Shown piece by piece: positions 8,475-54,468 of a stretch of DNA of 64,000 nt. The notes below the pieces were generated by a model. The model saw only the letters and a program-made list of their open reading frames with translations, did no database searches and was not told where the DNA came from. The first letter of the stretch is position 1; the number at the start of each line of letters is the position of its first letter. This DNA is from Pegea sp. RAD2-039 (taxonomy: Eukaryota > Chordata > Thaliacea > Salpida > Salpidae). Location: the NCBI GenBank assembly GCA_034620365.1, contig JAQGEQ010000003.1:124001-188000 (forward strand), given 5' to 3'. A program made the translations under genes and the position numbers.

Positions 8475-10452
8475 TTTATTATTATTAAAAATCATAGGAG
8501 ATATATAAAAGAAATTTTATACAAAATATTATCTATATTTAAATTTTCTTTTTCAGTATTTATAAATTTCAACCAATTGACAGGAAAATGCAAAAGTATT
8601 TTTGGGGATTAGTTTTATTGCTACTTTATTTTTAAAGATATCTCCTATAATGTATTTTTATGATATTTTTAACTCCAAAAACTACAAAAACAAATTAAGT
8701 TACTTAACAACTTATCACAGTTTAAAGCAAAAACTCTAATAACAAAAACAAATTCAAATAATGCTTCAGATAAACATTTTTAATAACTTATAAAGATTTC
8801 TTACTTTAAATCATCAAAAATAATAAATGTCTTGAAAAATATTTATTAATTTGAAGCAAAGTAGAGTTTAATGCTACAAAATGTCATCAAAACAGATTAA
8901 CCTCTTCTAACTGTTCACCTACTTGTAATTTACTAAAATTTATAATTGTACTTGCGGAGATTTAGTAAAAAGTTTGATAAATCAAACACCGAAATTTAGA
9001 ATGTTTGATTTGAGTTCAACTTTTTCTCGTACATATTTTTTAACTGATGTAAATGAACAATCTTATATTAATATCAAAACGTAACGAAGAAGACAGTTTA
9101 AGTCGATTCGAGGGGAAAAAATGGTCAGTAAACTTTATACACCAGGAAAATTTATCAGCTGATTCTAGGCTAAATTCACAATTCTATGTAGATAATAGTT
9201 TATTAATGTCTTTACAAATAATAATATTATTTCTATATTAGCAATAAGTTTACACTGGCCATACAAAGTTTTACTTTTTGCCAAAAGATATCTTTAGACT
9301 TTTAAAATTAAAACTTAATGGTTGAAATCGTATTTTATTTTGATTTTAATGAAGTCGTTTATGTCCTCCAGCTTCAAAAGTCTTTAAAATCTTTGTTTAA
9401 TAATTTAATAACATTTTAGTTATAAACTTTTTTATTTTCTAACTTAATGAATAAGTTTTTGAAATAGATTTAATCTCCTAACCAATTATAACTTAAGTTT
9501 TTAAACTAAAGTTTTTATTTTCACCAAAATTTAGGAAATTTTTTTTAGAAAATCTTTAAGCTAAAAAATTTGAAGAAAACTAATTACAAATATTATTTAT
9601 TACAAATTCTTCTATAAATGACACAAAAGAGTATACAGCAATGTCAATAATAGTAATACAACTGTAAAACACAATCGTTTATCTGTAAATATGTTTAATG
9701 GAAATAGAATGAGAAACAATATTTCATTATTAATAAGTAATCATTATCTCTTTGTAGCATTTATTTTCCATTTGAGTCAAGTATACTAGCAAATATTTGC
9801 ATTTTTAGTTGATGAAATATCTTACAAGTGTTAACTAGTTTTTAGTTTACTAACTAACAAGTTAAATCCTAATTTTTTTTTATCATAATACTTTACATTA
9901 GTACCTTGTTTATTAAATCTAAATTAGTTCTTCAAAGTCTAAATAAATCATGAAATTTGAGAACATTCGATTTATTAAGATAAGAGCATAATTCTATTTA
10001 CTAAATTGTTTTCAGGTTATGAGATTTTAAAATATTAGGTTCCATTACAGGCATTTTAAGGAACGTTTTTGGTATTCATAAACTTATCATAATTTTTCTG
10101 ACTTTTTTGTGCTTTATTTTTTTTTGACTTCATTATTTAATAAAATCAGAATCAATTTTTTCTCAAACTTTAATTAAACAAAATTTTTATTGATTCACAA
10201 TTATAAATTAACGGAGATTATATTTATCAATAACAAATTCAAAATTGAAAGTTTTATAGAACATAATATTCATTCATACATACATCATTACACAAACACA
10301 AATAAACGGATAATAATGTTACAAATTATCAAATGTAATTTATGCTTTACAACTATAAGTTCTTTTTTAGTTTTAAAATTTATATAAATATTTAATTTAA
10401 TAATTATTTCATGTCATTACGTCGGCAGTTTCAAGTGTATAAAACTTTACGC
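8475..10452. other. Intergenic, no confident gene
   Basis: No recognised gene. A 62-codon plus-strand frame at 9053-9241 starts with ATG and is rich in charged and polar residues in its first 45 codons (KRNEED, SRFEGKKW). It could be a small gene or an exon, but matches nothing I know. The rest is AT-rich filler. Confidence 0.45.
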
Positions 10453-10458
10453 TTTATT
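10453..10458 (-). terminator. Possible poly(A) signal of the cionin gene
   Basis: On the minus strand the reading TATTAATAAAG places AATAAA overlapping the cionin stop codon. If this is the signal used, the 3' UTR would be very short. Other signals may lie downstream. Confidence 0.35.
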
Positions 10459-12355
10459 AATATTCAAAATCTTCAGAAGTAGCTCGTTTACCAAAATCCA
10501 TCCAACCATAATAATTTCTGTTCATTCTTTTAAGATCCTCATCATTATTTGCTCCATTTAATCCTAAATGAGAAATCATTTGATCTTTTCAATAATTCTC
10601 AACATTTATGTTTGTAATTATTTTTGTAGTTTTCTGTGCATTTGTATTAAACAGATTTTAATGCTTACAAATAAACGCCAATGTTAAAAACTCTTCATGT
10701 TTTCATGAAATTTAAATTGCAATTTTATTTAATTATATTTTTTCGTCTATTTCCATAAAACACAAATTTTGATCTCAAAGTAAATTCATTTTATATAAAT
10801 TATAAACAAATACTCTTACAACCACCAGTAGTCAGTCATATTTTCAATATATTTCTGTTTCTCACCTTCTTCATGATCAGATAGTTGCCGAAAAATGATC
10901 GCTTTAAGAAATCTAGAGAACAGAGATCCTTTTTTAGCTTCCTTCCACAACTTTATCAGAGAGTTTTCACTGGCAGCACGATTATCAGCGTCACCTCCTA
11001 CATTTCAGTTGGTCATAAATTTAATTTGTTCATAATCTTCAAGAGTTAGTTGATGATAGATTTAAGATCAATTTGATTCTTTAAGATCACGTGTTAAATA
11101 CAAATTGATCAATTTATGATGCATTAGAATAAACTAATGCATACATCACTTGCTTTTACATTTGCTAATTGGTGTACTTTATCAAAATATTTAGTCAATT
11201 TGTTTAAGGTCACAAGACAATCCAAATATAGCAGAGTTTCTGAAGTAAATAATTGATGGTTTTCCAAAAGCTACCCAAAGTATCTTTCCTCTATCTATTT
11301 TGCTTCGATTTTTTCTTTCATAACTACAAATTTACTTTCTTCATTTTAACTTTTTTATTCTTAATAACATTAAATCTTAGAATGTTAAAGATAAATTGAA
11401 TTTTTAAATACGGCAACTTAATTTTTAAATCTAAAATTTATGTTTAATGACTTTTATAACTAAGATAAAAGCGATTAAAAGCTAAACACAATTTACTCTA
11501 GATCCAAAACCACTTCAAACTTTTAGGATAAAGAACACAAAGAATAAAGCTGGAGAAGAATATATTTTAAATCAAATATTCTAATCTTGTTTCTTCAATT
11601 GATTTATAATCAGGTAAAGTGAAGTAGGCCAGATAATATTCAGTATTTTGTGTTTTTCATTTTATCGGTGAATTTTACATCAAAAAATTTCTTTAAAGAA
11701 ACCTTTTAAAAACACAAAAAGTTAATGAAGTTCTACACGCTTTATCTAGCTTGTCGTAGCGTCTTGATTTTAAAAATCAATTTGAAATGGTTTTCAGGTA
11801 AATAAGCTCTAAAAATTTGAAAAAAAATTATTAAATGCACTAATTTTTAAAAAAACCAAACAAGAGAGCTTCTATTTGCTTTAATTTGCTTTAATTAAAC
11901 TACTTAATCATTTAAAATTCATGATGCTCTATCAGTGGTTTTAAACAAAACCTCATAAAGATTATTCTTTGTTTTTTAATGTAATGATTAAGGCAGTTTT
12001 TATCAAAAAATTTTTAAAGCTTTGACGTCTTAAAAGCTTTTAGCAAATACTTTTAAAAACTTTCCCAGCACCAAATCTGTACACTTATAAAACGTTTTGT
12101 TGCAATGAATAGAAATTTGCAGATAATACAAAGTTTTAAACAATTCTTGTTTCTTTGATTTTCTTAAAAGATAATATTAAACAAAATTTGATAAACAGAA
12201 ATACCTTTAAGTCGGAATTTTGATAAGAAATGATGTTGTAACAAGGTATCATCCGGAGGAGACCAAGACTCAGATGACGCCAAACCAAAAAGACCAATGA
12301 CGATGCCAAACACAACTAATTTGGTCGAAAATTTTTTAGACCCACTCAAATACAT
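10457..12355 (-). CDS. Cionin precursor (cholecystokinin/gastrin-family neuropeptide)
   Basis: Secreted precursor of an amidated CCK/gastrin-family peptide, acting through CCK-receptor-type GPCRs. Coding exons (minus strand) are 12355-12205, 10997-10866 and 10584-10457; junction phases agree and give 136 residues. Residues 11-28 form a hydrophobic signal sequence ending near ASS/ES. After a spacer, exon 3 carries Lys-Arg, then MNR, then NYYGWMDF, Gly (amide donor) and Lys-Arg, followed by an acidic tail ending in EDFEY. NYYGWMDF-amide is identical to ascidian cionin, whose two tyrosines are sulfated; WMDF-amide is the CCK/gastrin core. Lys-Arg or the single Arg before Asn would set the N-terminus. 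An acceptor-like TATTTTAG ends 2 nt before the ATG. Intron 1 is 1207 nt, intron 2 is 281 nt. Identification is firm; exact N-terminal processing is inferred. Confidence 0.93.
10484..10516 (-). other. Mature cionin peptide plus amidation and cleavage signal
   Basis: This 33-nt segment encodes NYYGWMDF followed by Gly-Lys-Arg. Gly provides the C-terminal amide and Lys-Arg is the prohormone convertase site. The two adjacent tyrosines lie in an acidic and aromatic context suited to tyrosine sulfation in the Golgi, as is known for cionin. Confidence 0.95.
11122..11146. repeat. Short perfect inverted repeat in cionin intron 1
   Basis: ATGCATTAG and its reverse complement CTAATGCAT are separated by a few A/T bases, so the RNA could form a 9-bp hairpin. 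It lies within the first cionin intron. Function unknown; palindromes of this size can occur by chance in AT-rich DNA. Confidence 0.4.
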
Positions 12356-15300
12356 ATTTCTAAAATATTAAAAGTAATCCAAGTAGCTGACTGAGAATAT
12401 TCAAAAAGTTGTGTTGAAGTAATTTGTAGAAAAATAGAAATTAGTAAAAATCTTAAATGAGATATATGACGAGAAAACATCAATCAAAATTACTAACAAG
12501 TGAAATATAAGATTCCAAAACTTATTTCTAATTGACGGGAAAATATTTATATTTTACGTAAGCGTTGAAAAGCAAAGTTTCGATAACCTGATAAGCTTAA
12601 TACTTCTTTTGCTAATTTCACTTACCAGCTATTATTATTTATTGTCAGATTTATTTACTGTCCATTTGCAAAATACTTTCTAGCACCTATTATTAATTAT
12701 CCAAAAGTGTAATTGTATAGAATATAAAGCTTATTATTTATCTTATATTTGATTACAAATAAAATGATATCTTTATATAGATCTTTAGCTTATTTTAGTT
12801 AACTATTTATTTGGCAGATTTCCCTTTTTGAATTAGCCAACAGTATTTAGAAAAATATTATCAAATTAAGCTGCCAAAATTCTTTAGACTCTCCTAAAAC
12901 TTCAGCAAATTGACTGATTCTTCATTTTGTAAAAAAATCATAATTCAATTTGAAGCAAACTTTGTTGAAAGATTAAATTCTAGAAACAATGTGGTTAAAA
13001 TGCAGATGAATTTATACTGAGATTGAAACCGGTACTGCGGGCTTACTGATGAATAAATGAAAGATAAAAAACCATAAAAGAAAAAAGCAAGAAATCAAGA
13101 ATAATGAATAAAACAAACAGGACAGAAAAAAAATCGAACAAATCACAATGATTAAAAGCTGACTAAAAACAAAACTTGTAACTAACCATCACTTTCCATC
13201 ATCATTATTTACTTCTTGGCAAAAAACAATTTTCCTTTAAAATTGAGTTTTAATCTCACACATGAAGACAGCATTCACTATAAATGCCAAACGGAAGTTG
13301 TTTACCGGAAATTGAGCCTTATTTCGTAAATTAACAAGATTTGTAAGAAACATAAGATAAATAAATCATATTTGGCTGTAATAGTTTTAAACAGGTAAGT
13401 TTTTAATTCATTATTTCATCTGAATCTGATGTGAATCATTTTGATCTTAGCAAAAGAAGTATAATTATATATGTTTACATTTAATGAGTTTCATGTTGGA
13501 ATATACTAAAGGTTACTTTAAGCAAGTTAATTAAAACTTTATCTAGTGTAAATTCATATAAATTACAATCATTTTATTTATTAGTATGTTTGTTACTTTT
13601 AATATAAACAAATTCTTTTTATTCAAAGTATTATTTTCTATTGCTACATAATCTAAACTCTTATAAATTATCTTTTAGTCTTAACATTATTCAGCAATAA
13701 TTTTCTGATGGTTACTTATGTTAAGTTCTTTTGCATAATTTAGAAAACATTTTAACTGGTATTTGTTGTGCAGTATTTGACTTAATAGTTTCTGAAAATA
13801 GATTTCAAAATCTTTTTGAAGTCATCGGTTTCTTTGTACAAAATGTTGTGACTTTATAAATCTTTAATAGACTTTAAAACTGAACACAATAGTTCAAAAG
13901 TTGAGAGTTTAACATTAAAATGAATATAAATGAGTTTTAGTCTAGTGAGTTTATGTTGAAGGCATTAAAAATCAAATACAAAAAAGAAATCTTTAAATGT
14001 AGTCTTTAGTTTATTTAATAACAAAAGTTTGATATCAATTGCTTAATAAAGTTTTTACTTTAAACAAGAATAAATAAATTTGCATTTTATAAGCAATTTA
14101 TACGTGTAATAATAATCAGAATACTTTTCCAAACCAAAGTCATATCGTTTAAAAAACCACAAATTATTTAATAAATCTTATACTATGCACAAAAGTATTC
14201 GAAAAAAGTTTAGTAAAAATACAAATTTTTCTTTATTAGTAATTAATATCTTGTACTTTCATGCATTAATAATTTATCAATTAATTAAGTTTGTAAGATA
14301 AAACATTTTTTATCTGGGATATAATAACAATCATTTTAAAGGTTTTTCATATTTATAAAAAGCTAAATAATGTTAACTGAACAGTTTACATTTTAATAAT
14401 TACACAAGCTAAGATTTTTTAATCAATATCAAACTATTTACTAAGTTTATAAAATACATATAAACGTTTTTCTTCATTTCACACTATAACTAAATATAAA
14501 CTTTTTATATAAGGTATAAATGATTTATATTAATAAGAAGTAATCGGAAATTTAAGATCGATATTATAATTTTAATATCTTATTTTTTATAGTTATATTT
14601 AAAAGGTTTATTTAGATAAATAGCTTATTAGGTTTCCGTTACTTTTCAATTACTTCAATAAGTCGTAAGTATTTGATTAGAAGTTTTCAAGGCTTTTCAC
14701 AATTAACTTTAGTATCCGTATTTTCAACTGTTATATCATTAAACAACTTATTTCTTTATTTAATATTTTTTGTAGTTTCTATTTTACTAAGAAAATGTAC
14801 AAAATGATTTGATTTATCAGTTTCTATTTACAAATTGTGGCTGTAGCATAATCTAGTTTTCATTGATTTATAAATAATTACTTATACAATATGACTATTA
14901 AACTGAAATTCAAATTATACAGCAAAAATATTGCTTGGAAAATTTAACTGAAGCTTTTTTAGCAGCTAAAAATTTTGATTTTTTAAATGTTTGTGCCTTG
15001 TTGTCGTAAGTGTCTAGAAGCAAAACAAAGAGATCCCTCAAAAACTCATCAATAGATTTTTGATCAATTATTTTAGGTGTGAATGAAATATTAGTCTGAT
15101 TTAATCAAAAGCTTTTTATGGCTAACATATTTTGGTTTGTAACTTATTTCATAAAATTTATTGAGTTTTATCATTAATTTCTTTTACTTGTCATATAATG
15201 ACACATTAAAAGCATTTCAATTATACACGAATCATACAAATTCAAATCATTTTTCGCTGAAGTCTTTTTACCGTCACAAAACTGCTAATCTAAAAAAAAC

Positions 15301-18300: not shown

Positions 18301-19224
18301 AGATAATTGTGAAGAATATATATGTTACAGCTAAAGTTGATTTTAAATCGATGTTATTAAATAATTTTGGAAAGATAAGTTTCTCACTTCTTGTAAAATA
18401 ATTTTAAATGATCAATTTTTCAAATTAACTTCCTTATAATACATCAATTTAGATAAAGATTAAACTCCAAGATATTTATGAATGAAGTTTGATTACTATA
18501 TTTGAGATGATTATTTGTTTATAAAAAGGAAATCAACAAACTTTTCTTATCTCAATGCTAAGATCCATAACTTGAAGTCATTGAAATGTTGTTACGTCAA
18601 AAAGTTTTAAAAACCTTCCTAAATCATAATTCTACAGACATAAGTCACATGCTGACGTTTTGACAGCTCGTTTTATGTCTATATATATCAAAATAGGTTT
18701 TATTAACAATTATGGTTTGATATTTGAAAAAAAACTTTATTTCACCTTTGATCAAAGTTTCTAAAATGACTTCATTCATTTCTTTTTTATTCTAAACGGA
18801 AAAAAGCTTTAAATTAATCATAAAATGAAAAACTTTGAAAGTTACTTTTCTAGAATTTTTTTTTTAAAAGATTATATGACATTTTTCAATTCAAAAATAT
18901 AAACTTCCGGTACAAAAAGATGAAACCTAACAACCATAAAACGTTTTTACTAATAAAGTTAGAAAGAATTATCAAGTTCTGTAGAAAGTTCAGAAAAATA
19001 TTATTTTATATGTTTTGAAAATACTTAAAGTAGGGAGGGTTTAATGTTTTTTTTTTCAACTAGGAACTTTTAATAGAACTACTTCTTGTTTAAGACAATA
19101 TAAATTTTAAATGCTTTGTTTTCAGGCAGCAGTTGAAATAGTTTTCAATTTCTTTAAGTATCTTATCGAGTGATCGATTTTAACCTCGAGTAAACTTTAG
19201 TTTTTGGCAAGATCTTCTGATCTG
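12356..19224. other. Long intergenic stretch; includes the region upstream of the cionin gene
   Basis: No coding exon recognised. It holds two perfect CRE palindromes (15578-15585 and 15631-15638) and two TACGTCA half-type sites near 16996 and 17010. ETS-like motifs (ACGGAAGT, ACCGGAAAT) occur near 13293 and 13304. These lie upstream of the minus-strand cionin gene and of the plus-strand GPCR gene, so they could serve either; this is inference. Confidence 0.5.
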
Positions 19225-20567
19225 ATGGATGATAAGATTTTAGAGCAAGCTATTAAAGCAGTTTCAGTTTTTTTGATAGTAGTTGCTTTTGTTAGCAACT
19301 TATTGGTGATCTTTACCATATTAAAATATAAAGTACTCAGAACTATTTTCAATTGTATGATCTGTAGCTTGTGTTTTACATATATCATTTCAACTCTAAC
19401 ATCATCTCTGTATTTAGTTGGTACTCTAGAAACTCATCAAAATATTTGTGAGTTGCAATATATAGTGATAATTACTTAAGAGCTTTTTTGAAATCTTTTA
19501 AAATTGTTTTTATAAACTAATAAAAATTTATGAAAAGTATTGTATATTGGATTTACAAATAAAAAACTTTAAAAAACTTTTATATTTGTAGGTATAGCTT
19601 ACTGGGCTGTTGAGTTGGCAACGGACGTATCAACAGCTCTTCATATCTTCTCAATATCAATTCGCCGCTTGAGAAGTGTTTTAAATCCTTACAAAGTTTT
19701 TGATACTTCAAAGATACTAATTGCAGTATTTATCATTCTACTTTGGATATTTTCAGCTGTTACTGCTTCAATACCATTCTTAGTGACGAATACAAGTTCG
19801 AACTTTTCGACTTGATTTTGTTTACAAATTGTCTTTTACAGATGTATCATGTGGAAGATGTGAAAAACAAAAAACTGAAACTGCCAACCCAGCAGAAACC
19901 CATGAAGCTAATTTCATCATTTATGCTGTTTGTTATGGTTTGATCGTAACAGTAATCTTAATGTTAGTCATTGCAACATTCAGAACTGGAAGGTGAGATT
20001 TAGTTTATAATATTTCAACCTTAACTGTTCGATTTAAGTTTTAAACATGAATAAATAGTAAAATAGATTTTCACTCATACTTTAGTTAGATTTTTTTTTT
20101 GATTCAATCTGTTTACTATATTTTTTGAGCCCTAATTTATAAAATGTAAGTTTGTTTTTAAGCTTTTCAAAAAAATTTATCCATAATAATTTAAAAACAG
20201 ACATAAAGTCAAAACAGAACTGGAAAAACTGAAAGATGATGATCCAGAAGAAATGAAATTTGAAGTAAGATTTCAAGTTGCTACTGGTAAAGTAAAAACA
20301 GCTCAAAGTAAACTACGAAAGTCATTTTTTGCTACTAAAAATCAAAAGGAGCTTTTTGTTCAGCTGATATTAGTTGCAATGTGTTTTTTCATCGGTAACA
20401 CTGTCTCTTTACTTCATTCATTTTCACACATGACAAAAGTATGGTTCTGCGACAAAACCTGGTACTTATCTTTTTTGTTAATGAGATTTAGTGAATGTCT
20501 TTCGCCACTCATGGTTGTTGCTGGCTCAAAATCTGTTAAAAAAAAGATTTTTTGTCATTCTGATTAG
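19225..20567 (+). CDS. Divergent class A (rhodopsin-like) G-protein-coupled receptor
   Basis: Four exons: 19225-19447, 19592-19795, 19842-19992 and 20201-20567. Phases agree and give 314 residues with seven hydrophobic segments. TM1 includes SNLLVIF. TM3 begins at the conserved cysteine of CIAYW. TM4 contains LLWIFSAV and is followed by an extracellular NVSC glycosylation/disulfide site. TM5 is FIIYAVCYGLIVTVILML. A basic third loop of about 50 residues precedes TM6 and TM7. The family signatures are degraded: SIRRLRS replaces DRY, TM6 lacks CWxP, and LSPLMVVAG replaces NPxxY, with a short basic tail. The start is uncertain: the exon opens after an acceptor-like ACTTTAG at 19200, and the first in-frame ATG is at 19225. 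The ligand cannot be told. It may be a lineage-specific orphan receptor. Confidence 0.75.
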
Positions 20568-28559: not shown

Positions 28560-29770
28560 ATAAAGCAGAATTTATTTATTCATTACAATAAATGCGAAGG
28601 AGAGTGCCTAAAGAAAGCACTTCCCACTGACACACATTTTCACAAATAACATCTGTTAAGAAATATAGAAAGTAAAAGATGTAACACATAGCATTTCAGT
28701 AATCCTCAAAGCATATAACAGTGAAAAATTACAAAGAATTATGATAATAAAAATAATAAAAAATAAAAATTCACAGTTTAGAAATGGCAATGTTGGCAAT
28801 ATCATAACGGTTCAATTTCTGCTTGAACAACGCGAGTGATTCTGACATGACAATGTCTGATGGCAGCTGGTTCCATGTACTAATTGTGCGGTATGAGAAA
28901 AAATTCAATCTGATTAACGTACTAGGTGATATGGGTTTATTAAGATGTTATGTATGTCGTATGAGTTGATATAACTTGAGGGAAGGACTAATGGAAAAGA
29001 AATCATCAAACTGAAGGTCAATTAAATTGTAGATAATTCTAAAAATAAGAATTAAGTCGTATTTAATCTGTCGAATTTCCAAAGTATCTAAATTGAAGAA
29101 GCTGAGACGATGTTTATAACTATAATATTTAATATTAAGTTTCCTGCATACCAATCTTGTAAATGTTGCCTGAACAGACTCGATTTTGTTTATATCACTA
29201 ACTTGATATGGCATCCATGCGCTGACATTGTATTCAAGAATTAGACGTACTTACAATTTGAAAAGATTGATAAAAAAGCATGGGTTCTTAGAATTAAAGG
29301 TCTTTATAATAAGGTGGACAAGGTTGATTGATTTTGCAAAGATTCTGGAAACATAATTGCGCCATTTAAAGTCAGATGATAGAGTAATGCCAAGGTCTAG
29401 GACCGAAGATATTTGTGGAATAATAAATCCATTGATAGAGTATTGCCTCAAGGAATTTGCAGGTGGTTTACGAGAAAAAGTTATAAGTTCAGACTTTGTT
29501 GGCTGGTTTCTGAGCTGCCAGCTCTCTTTCTACAATGTTTAGTGCAGTTTGAAGTTTTGAAGGATTACAAGATGATAGCTTGATGTCATCTGCATGCACA
29601 AACATACTGACATCATCTACTGCTACTAGTCTTCTGATGAGGTCTTTGATGAAAATTAAAAAGAGAAGGGAACCCAGAATGGAACGCTGAGGAACGCCAC
29701 TGGTGATTTGACTAGGAGTTGATAAGGATCTTTTTACACGAGCTTGTTGGATTCTACCTGATAAGTAATA
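28560..29770 (-). mobile_element. Truncated, inactivated non-LTR retrotransposon with reverse transcriptase remnants (copy 2)
   Basis: On the minus strand three consecutive pieces in broken frames carry the C-terminal half of a CR1/jockey-like reverse transcriptase. Near 29700-29600 are SGVPQ-type and LGSLLFLIFIKDL blocks followed by an ADDIKL motif, a variant of the polymerase YADD box. Near 29430-29260 is SSVLDLGITLSSDFKW. Near 29190-28990 is the thumb/C-terminal block with QATFTRLV, YKHRLSFFNLDTLEIRQ and YDLILIFRII. Then follow the 3' UTR shared with copy 1 and an AATAAATAAA-like tail. The 5' half, including the endonuclease, is missing and the reading frame is interrupted, so the copy is not autonomous. 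Confidence 0.88.
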
Positions 29771-30833
29771 TATGTTTCATAAAATGTTGTATCTGATAAA
29801 CGCAGACTGCTGAAAATAATAAAAGATTTTCTAATTTCACCAAATAAACGGATCAATCTATAAAACAGAGAAGAAAAAGCCACATCAAAGTTTACAACAA
29901 TTTTTTCAGCTTATCATGTTTATAGTCGATAGTTTATAGCAATGATAAAAGGTAAATTCGATTATGGTAAAAAATTAGAAATATTTTCAAAACTTAACGT
30001 GATCAGCTAAATGAAGTATTAGTTGTTAATTCCCAACAATTTTTTCAAAATAAAATGAGTAAACCATAGCCGTTATCAACAAAATTGGTTTCAATAACAA
30101 AAGTATAAATAGTACAAAATGTTACATTTACATGAGCTAAGTGAAAAAATTATTCAGTGCTCGTTATTAAGTTTATTTTCATGAGCAATTGTAATAATCA
30201 AACCTTAGGTTATTGTTAGATGAAAAAAATCTAATTTAAAAAATATCAGTCCTTATTAAAAGTTGGTTTGTGGGTAAAAAGAGAAAACCTTTTTCATAAG
30301 CTAGTCAGTACAGCTGAAACTTCAAAAAGACCTCGACATTTACAGATTCATAACAAATTTAGAAAAAAGCTGTTTAACTAAATTATTGTTAACTATAAAT
30401 TTTTAGAAATACAAATTCATGAATTTATTTTAATATAATCAAGTAAATTTTTATTTTCTTCAGAGTCACCTCTTCTATTAAATAGTTTTATAAGCTTCTT
30501 ATTCGATGATTTTACTACTATAATCATTTTAAGTAGAGTGTGTTTGTGAAAAATCTAATTCATAGTTTTTAAACTGAATATTTGCTGTTGAAACTTTTTT
30601 TTTAAAAACCATTTTAATTTCCCATTTTACGCATGTACACAAACATTGTTTTATCTAACGTGTAAAACTTATTACGTTTATCTATCATTTTATCTTTTAT
30701 CTATCTACATGGCTTAATAATTTCTTGATTATGATTAAAATCATTTAAATTAACATAATCTTTATAATACTATTAAAAAATATTTTGAAAATGATGTGTG
30801 AATATGCTTTAATTTTTGACTTTTATATTTAAG
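29771..30833. other. Gap upstream of the ETS gene; no PNT-domain exon seen
   Basis: A GABPA-type gene normally has a PNT (pointed/SAM) domain encoded upstream of the ETS domain. I scanned this stretch for such an exon and found none. The sequence is AT-rich with no other gene-like frame. Confidence 0.45.
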
Positions 30834-41029: not shown

Positions 41030-42402
41030 TTAAAGAATGTCTTTGTATTTCATCCAAAGTTTATCAAAGCCTGGGTAAGTTTTTCCACTTTCCATTAAGA
41101 GTTCATCAATTTGTTTTGCCTGTTCTTCACTCAACAAACTCTTCCAGTCTCCAATGACTCCTTTGCGAGTAAAAGGAATATCTTTTGGTCGATCTGACCC
41201 TTTTGGAGTCTTTAAAAGAAAACGAAGTTTAAAAAGTGATTAACACATGATGATATGTTGTCTTCACTTAATTACAGACTTACAAACTTCTCAAAGTTTA
41301 TCTTCATATTTTCAATTGAAGCTAGATTTGTAATTTCCTTCAGCAATTTTTGATCATCTTTTTGTAGCGAGAGTAAATAATTGTCACCCAAAAAATTAGC
41401 AATCTTGCATAACTCACTAATAAACATTAAAAGAAATTATAAAACTTAGATAATCAAGCAGGATATTAACCTGTGAAAGTCGCTTTTTAAATCTTCATAC
41501 AAAACAAAATGAATATTGCTTCTTTTTTTACATTCTTCCCACCATTCTGGTACAACTTCAAAGTAATTACCAAAATCACATTCACCGTTTATAAAAAGAT
41601 CAAAGTAATCATCAAAAGTCCCATCAGCAAAATTATACCAATTAGCAAACCCAATTGTATGATAGAAGAATGATACTACTGTGTCTTTTGGATTCCGAGC
41701 TGTGTGTTTTAATAGCAATTAATTGCTGAGTAATAAAATTAATTGCACCGTACCAATGTAAATAAATTTATTTTTGTCATTGATTGGTGCAAAACTGTAC
41801 TTGAGATGTGAATGAAGAAGATTAGGTCTGGACTCGTCTGTAAGAAAACCACTGTCCCGAAATTCAAGAGGGATGTAGTGAGAACTGAACGTGTCATCTC
41901 CGGAGAAAGTTTTGTTTCCACCGCGCAAAAGATAGAGAATATATAGCTGAAAAAATTCATGTCATTGTTTGCATATTTAACAATTTTATTAAAAAATATT
42001 TGGATACATTTTTTGACACTTTAGACAATGGTTAAGTAAACAGAAAATAATTTTCTGTTAACATTCATAGTAATATTTCATCAATTAAAAAAATTGTTTA
42101 CTCTAATCACAATAATTTTTATTTTCAGTTTTTACGTTTTAATCTTTATTATTTTTACATGGATAAAGAATTCGAATAAAAAGTTATTTTTGAAACTTCT
42201 GAAAGTCGAGCTTTGAAAGCAGCAAAATTAACCATTTTACCATCCAAGTTGTCCCATTTTTTGGGTATGATAAAACCATCAAGTCATTCTCTCTAGGCAG
42301 ATAATTAATTGCTGAATCAAACATGGCTTGAGAAATCATTGGAGGAACTGTATAAATTCCATAATTTTTATGATAAACTTTGTTGTAAGTTGGTATTTTC
42401 AT
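41030..42402 (-). CDS. Cytosolic sulfotransferase, SULT1 family type
   Basis: Transfers sulfate from PAPS to hydroxyl or amine groups of small molecules in the cytosol. Five exons (minus): 42402-42241, 41946-41754, 41699-41471, 41416-41284 and 41209-41030; phases agree and give 298 residues, the usual SULT length. The 5'-phosphosulfate loop is YPKNGTTW (46-53). LLHSHLKY contains the probable catalytic His101. IARNPKDTVVSFFY is the 3'-phosphate-binding and dimer-proximal block. YEDLKSD is conserved, and RKGVIGDWK (254-262) is the C-terminal PAPS signature. The first exon has two acceptor-like sequences before the ATG, TTCCTACAG (11 nt) and TTTTTAG (4 nt). The exact acceptor substrate, and whether it is SULT1 or a tunicate-specific branch, cannot be told. 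It is not a Golgi tyrosylprotein sulfotransferase and so is not the enzyme that would sulfate cionin. Confidence 0.94.
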
Positions 42403-43711
42403 TTTGCTAAAAACTGTAGGAAAAATTTTAAAGAATATTTTTTTAAGCCAAATAATGAAAAAAGAACTTCATTCTGATAATTTTAATTTCTCTTACATAA
42501 GGATAAATATCTTTATAATTTATTAAAAATAAATTTTATCAACAAAAAAACCTCCTTTTCAAGCTGGATGTTTTACTTTAATTTTTTCACTTCATAATTT
42601 GCTTTCTAAACATCAAAACAACAACATCAAGTCAAAAAGCTTAATTATAATGAGGGTAAAACATTGTAATAAACATTTACTAAACTTATAAAAAGCTCTA
42701 TCAAAGCGCTTTTAGCGCCCACTAGCGTTTGTTTTTTCAACCATTTTCACAAATTCTTTTTTAGATTGAGTTTTTTTAGTGTAAGATTATGTTGACGAGG
42801 TTAAAAACTATCTATACTAATAAAGAGAATACTACTAAAGGAAGCTTTTATTATATTAACAAATATATAACACCTAACTAAAATCTTCAGGCTTAAAAGT
42901 TTCTAGGACAACTTTAGAAATTAAACTTTAATATTTAAACTAATTGCTTTTTACATTAGCTTGGTAAGAACCCTTGAGTGTAGATTAAACTCTTATTTTT
43001 GAAAATACTGTTCGGTAGTTTGACTAAGTCGTGGCCACATGGTAGAAATACAAACAACAACAAAATATTTTCTAAATGAAAAAAAATATATTTGATAAAA
43101 AAACAAGAATTATAAAATGTTTTGACTTTTTACTTTCGTCAATCAACATTTTCTTGTTAAAATATAGCATTATCAGCTTTTTGAGCTTCAGCTTTTATTA
43201 GTAACCTTTACTTAAGTTCTAAGCATAAAATGCTTGACTGCTAAACTACTTAAAAGAAGAAATGCCTTGTCACTGCTATTGTAATCAAAAAACATTTCTT
43301 CCTCGACAAAGATCTATCTGCAAGACTGCAGTAACTTGACAAGTCTTTAAATACATAAAACAAACAAAGAAAACTGAATTTAATAAATAGATTTTAGTAG
43401 CTAAACATTGTACTAATTCTAATAAAATATTCGAATTTCAAAAGTTTAACTAAAATTTCTTAAATAATTTACTAATTCTTAGAAAATAAAAAAAGAATTT
43501 AAAAGCAATTTATTCGGTGGCATAAGAAATAATAAACTGAAATTTCACTACAAACAACATAAAAATACTCTTATTCTTCAGGCACACTGCTCTGAATACA
43601 GCAATTCAAATCAATTAATATTTGAAAATTGAACAAATATTTTTTAACGATTTATTTGAAAAGTTCAAAGTATGCTGGAACAGAATTGAAAAAATTGATT
43701 TAAAACTCTCT
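42403..43711. other. Intergenic, no gene recognised
   Basis: Separates the start of the sulfotransferase from the end of the PKG gene; both are on the minus strand. AT-rich, nothing further identified. Confidence 0.5.
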
Positions 43712-49135: not shown

Positions 49136-51317
49136 TTTATGTTTAATAAATTGTACTATTCGACAGTTTTTAAATAAATATTGTGTTATACGAACATCTA
49201 CTTCTAGATTAAATATCAACAATCATTTCATAAACAAAACTTAAGAAAATTTAATACAAATTAAATCTCTAAAATAGACAAGCCATAAACAAAATGAAAT
49301 CCAATTCTTAAAACTTATTTAAAGATTTATCAACCTTTCTACCTAGTTTGAAGTCTTAGAACTGGCCAAGTAATATTACCTGATCAGAATGCCACTTTTA
49401 TTTGCGTTTAGATTAAACAAGTTACTACTATCCGAAACTAATCTGTTTAAATCAGTTAATGACTCAAGAAAATTCATCTATAACCCTATTCTTGTTTGAC
49501 ACAACACACTTTAAGTTTATTGAAGTACTTTAGTTCATAAAGTTGGGGAACTATTTTAGTAATGATTTAAGCAATTTGCTATTAGATTTTAAATAGTTTA
49601 GACATTCTACTTGTAGAGTTTTGTTAGGTCAAGTATATCATGAAAAATCGGGTTTGCTTAGATTATGGAATGTTAAAATCATGTACCAATACAATGAAGC
49701 TGTTTATGAAAATAACTAAACCATTCAGATCAGTTTGTTTAAGTAATAACAGAGAAATCTTGGTTTCTTGAAGTAATGCTAGTTAGAAAATCTTAGAATC
49801 AGAAACTACAAGTGCTTACAAACATAGAAATTTTAAATTGCAAAAAGATATCAATTTAATCTCAAATAAACTTTCAAATAAAAACTAAAGTTAAAATAAT
49901 CAATTACTATTAAAATACTTTCATTGTTGTGTAGTGAAGTCAAACTAGAATTTGATAAAACTATTGCATTCTAAAAGCTGCCTTGGATGACGATTACATT
50001 TTCATTTTCACATTTATGATGTTTGATATCAACTCGTCACTAAAAGAGGATAGTTAACAAAATAAACATTTGTTCTTTAAATATTTCTGTTTTCGCTTTA
50101 ACGCTGAGGATCTAGTGTTGAGTGCTTTGTTCAACATTAGAATTTCATTAAACATTTTTTGGTGTCATGAGCTTTTTATCTAACGATTGTTATTCACTGA
50201 ATAATTCTTCAATAAATTATCTTTAGATTATTAAGGTTAAAACATATTTTTCAAATTAATTTCATTAAAATAACAAAAATTCTAACTCATTAGATTATTG
50301 TAATTTGAATAATTTTCCATAAAAAAATGGAAGAAAACAACTAATCTTTTTTGTTACCGCTACAAACACTGTCACACGTGACTTTTCTTTAAAAAAACTT
50401 ATAAAAACTTCTCATTAGATGATACTTTATCTAAACAATTTGATAATATCTTACCAATTATCTTAGTATCTAAGCTGCTTTAGTTTCATAAGCACCAAGT
50501 CTAATAAAAACTTTCTGATGAAAACTAACCTAAAGTTCAACAACCTTACTTTCAGCTATGTATTGTACTACAACATGCTAAGCATAAAGCTTCTTCTTTC
50601 AGGTTAATGGTCAACTAAGCTAAGTAAACATGATAAAATACATAAAAAGTGTTTGGAAATACCAAAAGAACTTTCTCTTTTTATTTTTCTTGAAAAAAAT
50701 GAAATGTTTTTTTATATTAATCAATTTTAGTTAATTATTACAAATTTTAGTGATTCATAAATATATTTTACATAAATGAGTATATTTACAGATAGATAAC
50801 CTCAGATTTTTGTTTTAAAGGTGATTAAGGACATCACAGGAAATAAAAGCGTATCAATGTTTAGTTTGGTTGGTATCATGATACTATTACCAAAGTTAAT
50901 TCGAACTCCACGCTAGTTGGAGATTTAGTTATTTGTACAAACTTTTAAAACAATACTAAAAAATTCTTTTATCTTGATTTACTAGCTTGACTGTCTTCTT
51001 TTTCAGATTTTGCAAAATCATTTATTTAAAATACTTTTCTTATCTATCGGTTAAAAGAATCTAACCCGAAATCGCCAAGCATTCTAAAGTTTATAATAAT
51101 TTAAGTAAATCATAGAAAGTATTATTGCATCAAAAACTTTATGGATAAATTGTATTAATAATTACAACAGATCTATCTACGAACAGTATTTTTAATTAAA
51201 ATGGTCTTTTATATTAAACTGTTTTATTAGTCTTAAGCATATTCTGGCTGGATATTTAAATACCGTTGTATCAGTTTAAAATAAAAAAAATTAAAATTAA
51301 GTTATACATGCAAACGC
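49136..51317. other. Intergenic, upstream of PKG
   Basis: Contains the promoter side of the minus-strand PKG gene. AT-rich; no exon or clear motif array was seen. Confidence 0.5.

Positions 51318-54468
<3,151 letters not shown>

Follow-up and report, generated by a model that had tools for sequence, protein, structure and literature searches.

A probable cionin (CCK/gastrin-type) precursor gene and two CCK-receptor-like genes in a tunicate genome assembly

The DNA analysed was a stretch of 64,000 nucleotides (the window) from an assembly of 105,744,746 bases. On its minus strand, from 12355 down to 10457, a secretory precursor was read in three exons. Exon 1 (12205-12355) holds the start codon (ATG at 12355), the signal peptide MYLSGSKKFSTKLVVFGIVIGLFGLASS and the start of the propeptide, and closes at the donor AAAG/GTATTT (the slash marks the splice point). 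Exon 2 (10866-10997), recognised by GC content and codon score, encodes the middle of the propeptide (GGDADNR...HEE) between a weak acceptor and a good donor, GAAG/GTGAGA. Exon 3 (10457-10563 from its preferred acceptor, TTTCTCATTTAG/G), recognised by acceptor score, codon score and family profile, carries the peptide, its amidation and cleavage sites, an acidic tail and the stop codon. The first AATAAA past the stop lies at 10186-10191 on the same strand, and ATTAAA also starts at 10401 and 10396. The precursor is short and probably disordered. Its octapeptide, NYYGWMDF, was located at 10516-10493 by inspection and by pattern search and is followed by a glycine (the amide donor) and Lys-Arg, the segment YYGWMDF-GKR occupying 10513-10484. 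The initial annotation had described a minus-strand gene of three exons with a signal peptide and the layout Lys-Arg, MNR, peptide, Gly-Lys-Arg, acidic tail; its coordinates, strand and 136-residue translation were reproduced as written, and the layout was read as KRMNR-NYYGWMDF-GKR-ATSEDFEY.

Other features were recorded elsewhere in the window. GPCR-like open frames lie on the plus strand at 19201-20564, the first of which does not reach the 7tm_1 and Srsx cut-offs of Pfam. On the minus strand, broken retroelement frames were found at 28951-29776, where 29492-29776 matched reverse transcriptase and two neighbouring frames were without a Pfam match. A sulfotransferase of the Sulfotransfer_1 family (minus strand, 41449-42468; tested over 41449-41718) is presumably cytosolic and SULT-like, not of the tyrosylprotein type. 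A long trinucleotide repeat at 51274-51702 reads as poly-Asn, poly-Ile, poly-Tyr or poly-Leu depending on frame. No Rfam match was obtained at gathering thresholds within the window, and a known structured RNA was set aside on this ground as a reading of the locus.

The spliced protein was compared with the Pfam Gastrin/cholecystokinin family (PF00918) and matched at 39.2 bits against a cut-off of 22.2 (E=1.6e-9), in agreement with the single CCK/gastrin-type peptide first annotated; both splice versions (129 and 136 residues) stood above the curated cut-off. A degenerate 26-nt pattern for NYYGWMDFG had one match in the whole assembly, and chance occurrence was set aside on a reversed control with 0 matches. 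The core had been equated with that of cionin, and the NYYGWMDF found here agrees with the cionin octapeptide, the full sequence of which was reportedly given by Johnsen and Rehfeld in 1990. Spelled out as NYYGWMDF, it was not found in the open-access literature searched, nor in PMC8149874. No second gene copy was detected assembly-wide, either with the exon 1 protein as query (which found only itself) or with the peptide pattern, searches that are blind to a paralog in which both peptide and signal exon are altered. The minus strand from 12355 to 10457 very probably encodes a cionin precursor of the CCK/gastrin type and belongs to a tunicate that is not Ciona intestinalis.

Splice acceptor scores were trained on 11 acceptors from two receptor genes and NUBP1; splice points were placed by eye, and of 13 junctions in all, 2 in an unalignable third loop were left out of the acceptor set. 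Donor scores are rough because the nine donor strings, which also served in the signal-peptide scan, include the two dropped-loop junctions, one of these mistyped; the donor at 12205 had a middling score. For exon 3 the acceptor at 10563 (score 6.54, rank 4 of 94 AGs) was preferred to that at 10584 (score -4.05, rank 67 of 94) on the strength of these scores, the frame being kept by both. The intervening 21 nt (10564-10584, minus strand), assigned to exon 3 in the initial annotation, more likely form the last part of intron 2, and 18 nt of this stretch had a codon score of -1.8 bits. From 10563 the codon score of exon 3 was 14.7 bits, the 99th percentile for 36 codons being 12.1. Exon 1, exon 2, the frame and the peptide of the annotated model were retained, and its last acceptor is probably to be moved to 10563. 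The precursor then has 129 residues instead of 136, with DQMISHL lost and the mature peptide unchanged.

The acceptor of exon 2 at 10997 was weak (score -0.15, rank 33 of 94 AGs), and the middle exon is therefore the least certain part of the model. Its GC content was 40%, a level attained by 104 of 4862 equally long, overlapping control windows; the introns on either side have 24% and 22%. Its codon score, 12.7 bits, fell between the 95th (7.6) and 99th (14.9) percentiles of 1324 open stretches of noncoding DNA, each 44 codons long. The control stretches for the codon and signal-peptide scans overlap as windows and may contain unknown exons. An in-frame candidate exon of 90 nt at 11239-11150, with better splice scores of 7.16 and 7.23, was set aside as an extra cassette exon because it carried no coding signal (-3.1 bits).

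The case for exon 1 rests on the signal peptide; the codon score was uninformative at 1.9 bits, or 0.04 bits per codon, within the range of three receptor exons of the training set (0.02-0.09). GC content of exon 1 was 37.7%, reached in 219 of 4850 control windows. The hydropathy of the annotated signal peptide peaked at 2.8 over 12 residues. A rule-based scan for a signal peptide with a phase-1 donor, its criteria fixed after exon 1 had been seen, gave 1 match, exon 1 itself, on the minus strand of the 5 kb preceding exon 2; in 38.6 kb of control DNA read on both strands (77,200 strand-bases) there were 0 matches. Directly before the ATG lies a 3' splice site candidate of modest score (2.16), TTTTAATATTTTAG/AAAT (12356-12361, minus strand), which might be a trans-splice acceptor for a spliced leader or the end of a 5' intron. 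A stronger AG upstream of the ATG, with 12390 as first exon base, scored 6.9.

The source of the DNA was examined with marker genes. In tunicates CesA is a fusion of cellulose synthase and GH6 domains, and its GH6 domain was recorded in 8 of 8 tunicates and in 0 of 35 other metazoans (PMC6523144, in part). A GH6 domain (PF01341) was matched at C14:74494-74718; an open frame containing QRSRW, on the same strand and about 1.6 kb upstream of it, matched glycosyltransferase 2 and cellulose synthase profiles. Adjoining on the DNA, these two would represent the tunicate CesA mark, with a putative fusion by splicing. The 16-nt spliced leader of Ciona, ATTCTATTTGAATAAG (PMC7986045, in part), was found with a following GT at 99 places in the assembly (reversed control 0). 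A tandem array at C4:1135044-1142219 contains 33 exact copies, spaced mostly about 199 bp apart, and the leader continued as GTAAGT in 8 of 8 array copies viewed; in the one array unit viewed, inspection by eye did not reveal an exact copy of the Sm motif of Ciona, AGCTTTGG. Outside the array, scattered leader copies were followed by GTTA or GTTT and not by GTAAGT (7 of 7 viewed), and two such loci (L006 and L009) each have two leaders close together; these are possibly retroposed copies of trans-spliced RNAs.

The joined exons of a voltage-sensing phosphatase (VSP) gene matched best to PDB chains of that name (380 bits; human TPTE2 313, PTEN 122), with 175 of 275 residues (64%) identical to the best chain, which we take to be Ciona VSP. 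Two very similar, intronless PTEN-like frames of 411 residues stop-to-stop were also observed on contigs C28 and C75 and are a possible retrogene pair, Pfam having been run on the C28 frame. A search for mitochondrial COX1 gave no match in the assembly. The CesA/GH6 neighbours, the spliced leader and a VSP only 64% identical identify the host as a tunicate, the lineage first proposed, and most likely not C. intestinalis. The marker genes went against a non-tunicate host, the refuting condition set in the initial annotation.

Receptors were sought with a CCK1R fragment as query, which gave 9 matches in the assembly; the best two places, on contigs C15 and C3, are both multi-exon genes. The joined exons of the first (recognised at C15:240437-246649, minus strand) matched CCK1R (E=1.8e-81) and CCK2R (E=3.9e-73) in PDB, and the orexin receptors followed as the next family at 1.3e-36. 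The second (C3 near 2.80 Mb, minus strand) was classed as CCK-receptor-like by its likeness to the first, the PDB comparison having been made on the C15 gene: 191 of 273 residues are identical, and the intron positions look common by eye. The cionin gene (C15:134457-136355) and the C15 receptor gene share this contig and the minus strand, with 104 kb between them. Calculated after the fact and by area alone, the chance of either of two receptors lying this near is about 0.4%. It is a tentative and rather doubtful suggestion that this linkage is an old chordate arrangement lost in vertebrates, and that the receptor duplication preceded Ciona, contrary to the published account in which CioR1 and CioR2 separated within the Ciona lineage.

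Other explanations of the locus were weighed against these data. The peptide exon may be real and the middle of the precursor spliced otherwise, by another acceptor, by way of the cassette at 11239-11150, or with exon 2 skipped (exon 1 joins exon 3 in frame). On paper the frame would be kept by 25 direct joins and by 1669 middle exons, and the rank of the acceptor at 10997 leaves room for them; exon 2, however, has coding-like GC and codon use, which the cassette lacks. Such splicing, which overlaps with the cionin-gene explanation and is compatible with it, is considered unlikely but worth bearing in mind. A decayed or unexpressed gene copy is extremely improbable, given a frame intact across signal peptide, peptide, amidation site and tail, the retention of receptor-like genes in the assembly, and the failure of the exon 1 and peptide-pattern searches to find a second copy.

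The identical spliced leader and the same octapeptide would also be expected if the window came from Ciona intestinalis or C. robusta and the gene were the published cionin itself. The identity of the VSP to its best PDB chain, taken to be that of Ciona, speaks against this, and neither published Ciona cionin primer had a match in the window at up to 3 mismatches. One CioR1 primer was likewise without a match at the C15 receptor, and one CioR2 primer at the C3 receptor; primer mismatch is minor evidence, because junction-spanning primers would fail too. A Ciona origin is accordingly given hardly any weight, and a cionin gene of another tunicate is the reading retained.

Candidates for the processing enzymes were found in the assembly: a PAM-type domain, convertase P-domains and a Sulfotransfer_3 gene, one exon of which resembles TPST. 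Judging from the gene layout and from Ciona, the transcript would be spliced as modelled and the signal peptide would direct the precursor into the secretory pathway. Cleavage by a convertase would take place at the Lys-Arg before MNR and behind the peptide, and also at the single Arg ahead of Asn; in vertebrates there is precedent for this in the cleavage at Arg before CCK-8. A tyrosylprotein sulfotransferase would sulfate both tyrosines, the basic residues would be trimmed, and PAM would convert the glycine to a C-terminal amide. The predicted product, NY(s)Y(s)GWMDF-amide, may then be released to act on one or both of the CCK-type receptors of the same genome, a pairing suggested by homology, with a role in the nervous system, gut or ovary as in Ciona. 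In that animal cionin is sulfated on both tyrosines (positions 2 and 3), carries WMDF-amide at its end and has CioR1 and CioR2 as its receptors; its neurons are found in the anterior cerebral ganglion, and cholinergic neurons carry CioR1 (PMC10942981, in part). Ovulation is induced there by cionin, with CioR2 in the inner follicular cells (PMC8149874 and PMC8936170, both in part).

With the cionin of C. intestinalis or C. robusta the gene shares the octapeptide, the single gene and the two receptors; the species differs, and of the precursor itself the comparison covered the octapeptide. Vertebrate cholecystokinin and gastrin resemble it in GWMDF with Gly and a dibasic site, in one active peptide per precursor and in the PF00918 match, and their precursors too have an acidic tail after the peptide. 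The gene differs from them in having two adjacent tyrosines, Asn at position 1, and one gene where vertebrates have separate ones for CCK and gastrin. Sulfakinins and other protostome or ambulacrarian CCK-type precursors are alike in a Tyr-containing amidated peptide, a secretory precursor and a CCKR-type receptor, but are without the GWMDF-amide ending, which is common to the chordate members and absent in other animal groups (PMC6219549, in part). The coding introns predicted here contrast with a 2022 review scheme of selected species, where mammals and C. elegans are the only ones with introns noted (PMC8921109, in part).

The kind of hormone is already known, cionin having been described in Ciona among the open-access literature matches listed. 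What this assembly adds is a prediction of how the gene is divided into exons, a receptor pair in a second tunicate, and the linkage of ligand and receptor. The octapeptide is the same as in Ciona although the VSP of this genome has just 64% identity to the Ciona protein, which suggests that the peptide is strongly constrained. With a ligand gene and two receptor-like genes from one assembly, a receptor tree can be built and the linkage tested; cionin itself, encoded by a single gene, stands in for the ancestor from which CCK and gastrin arose.
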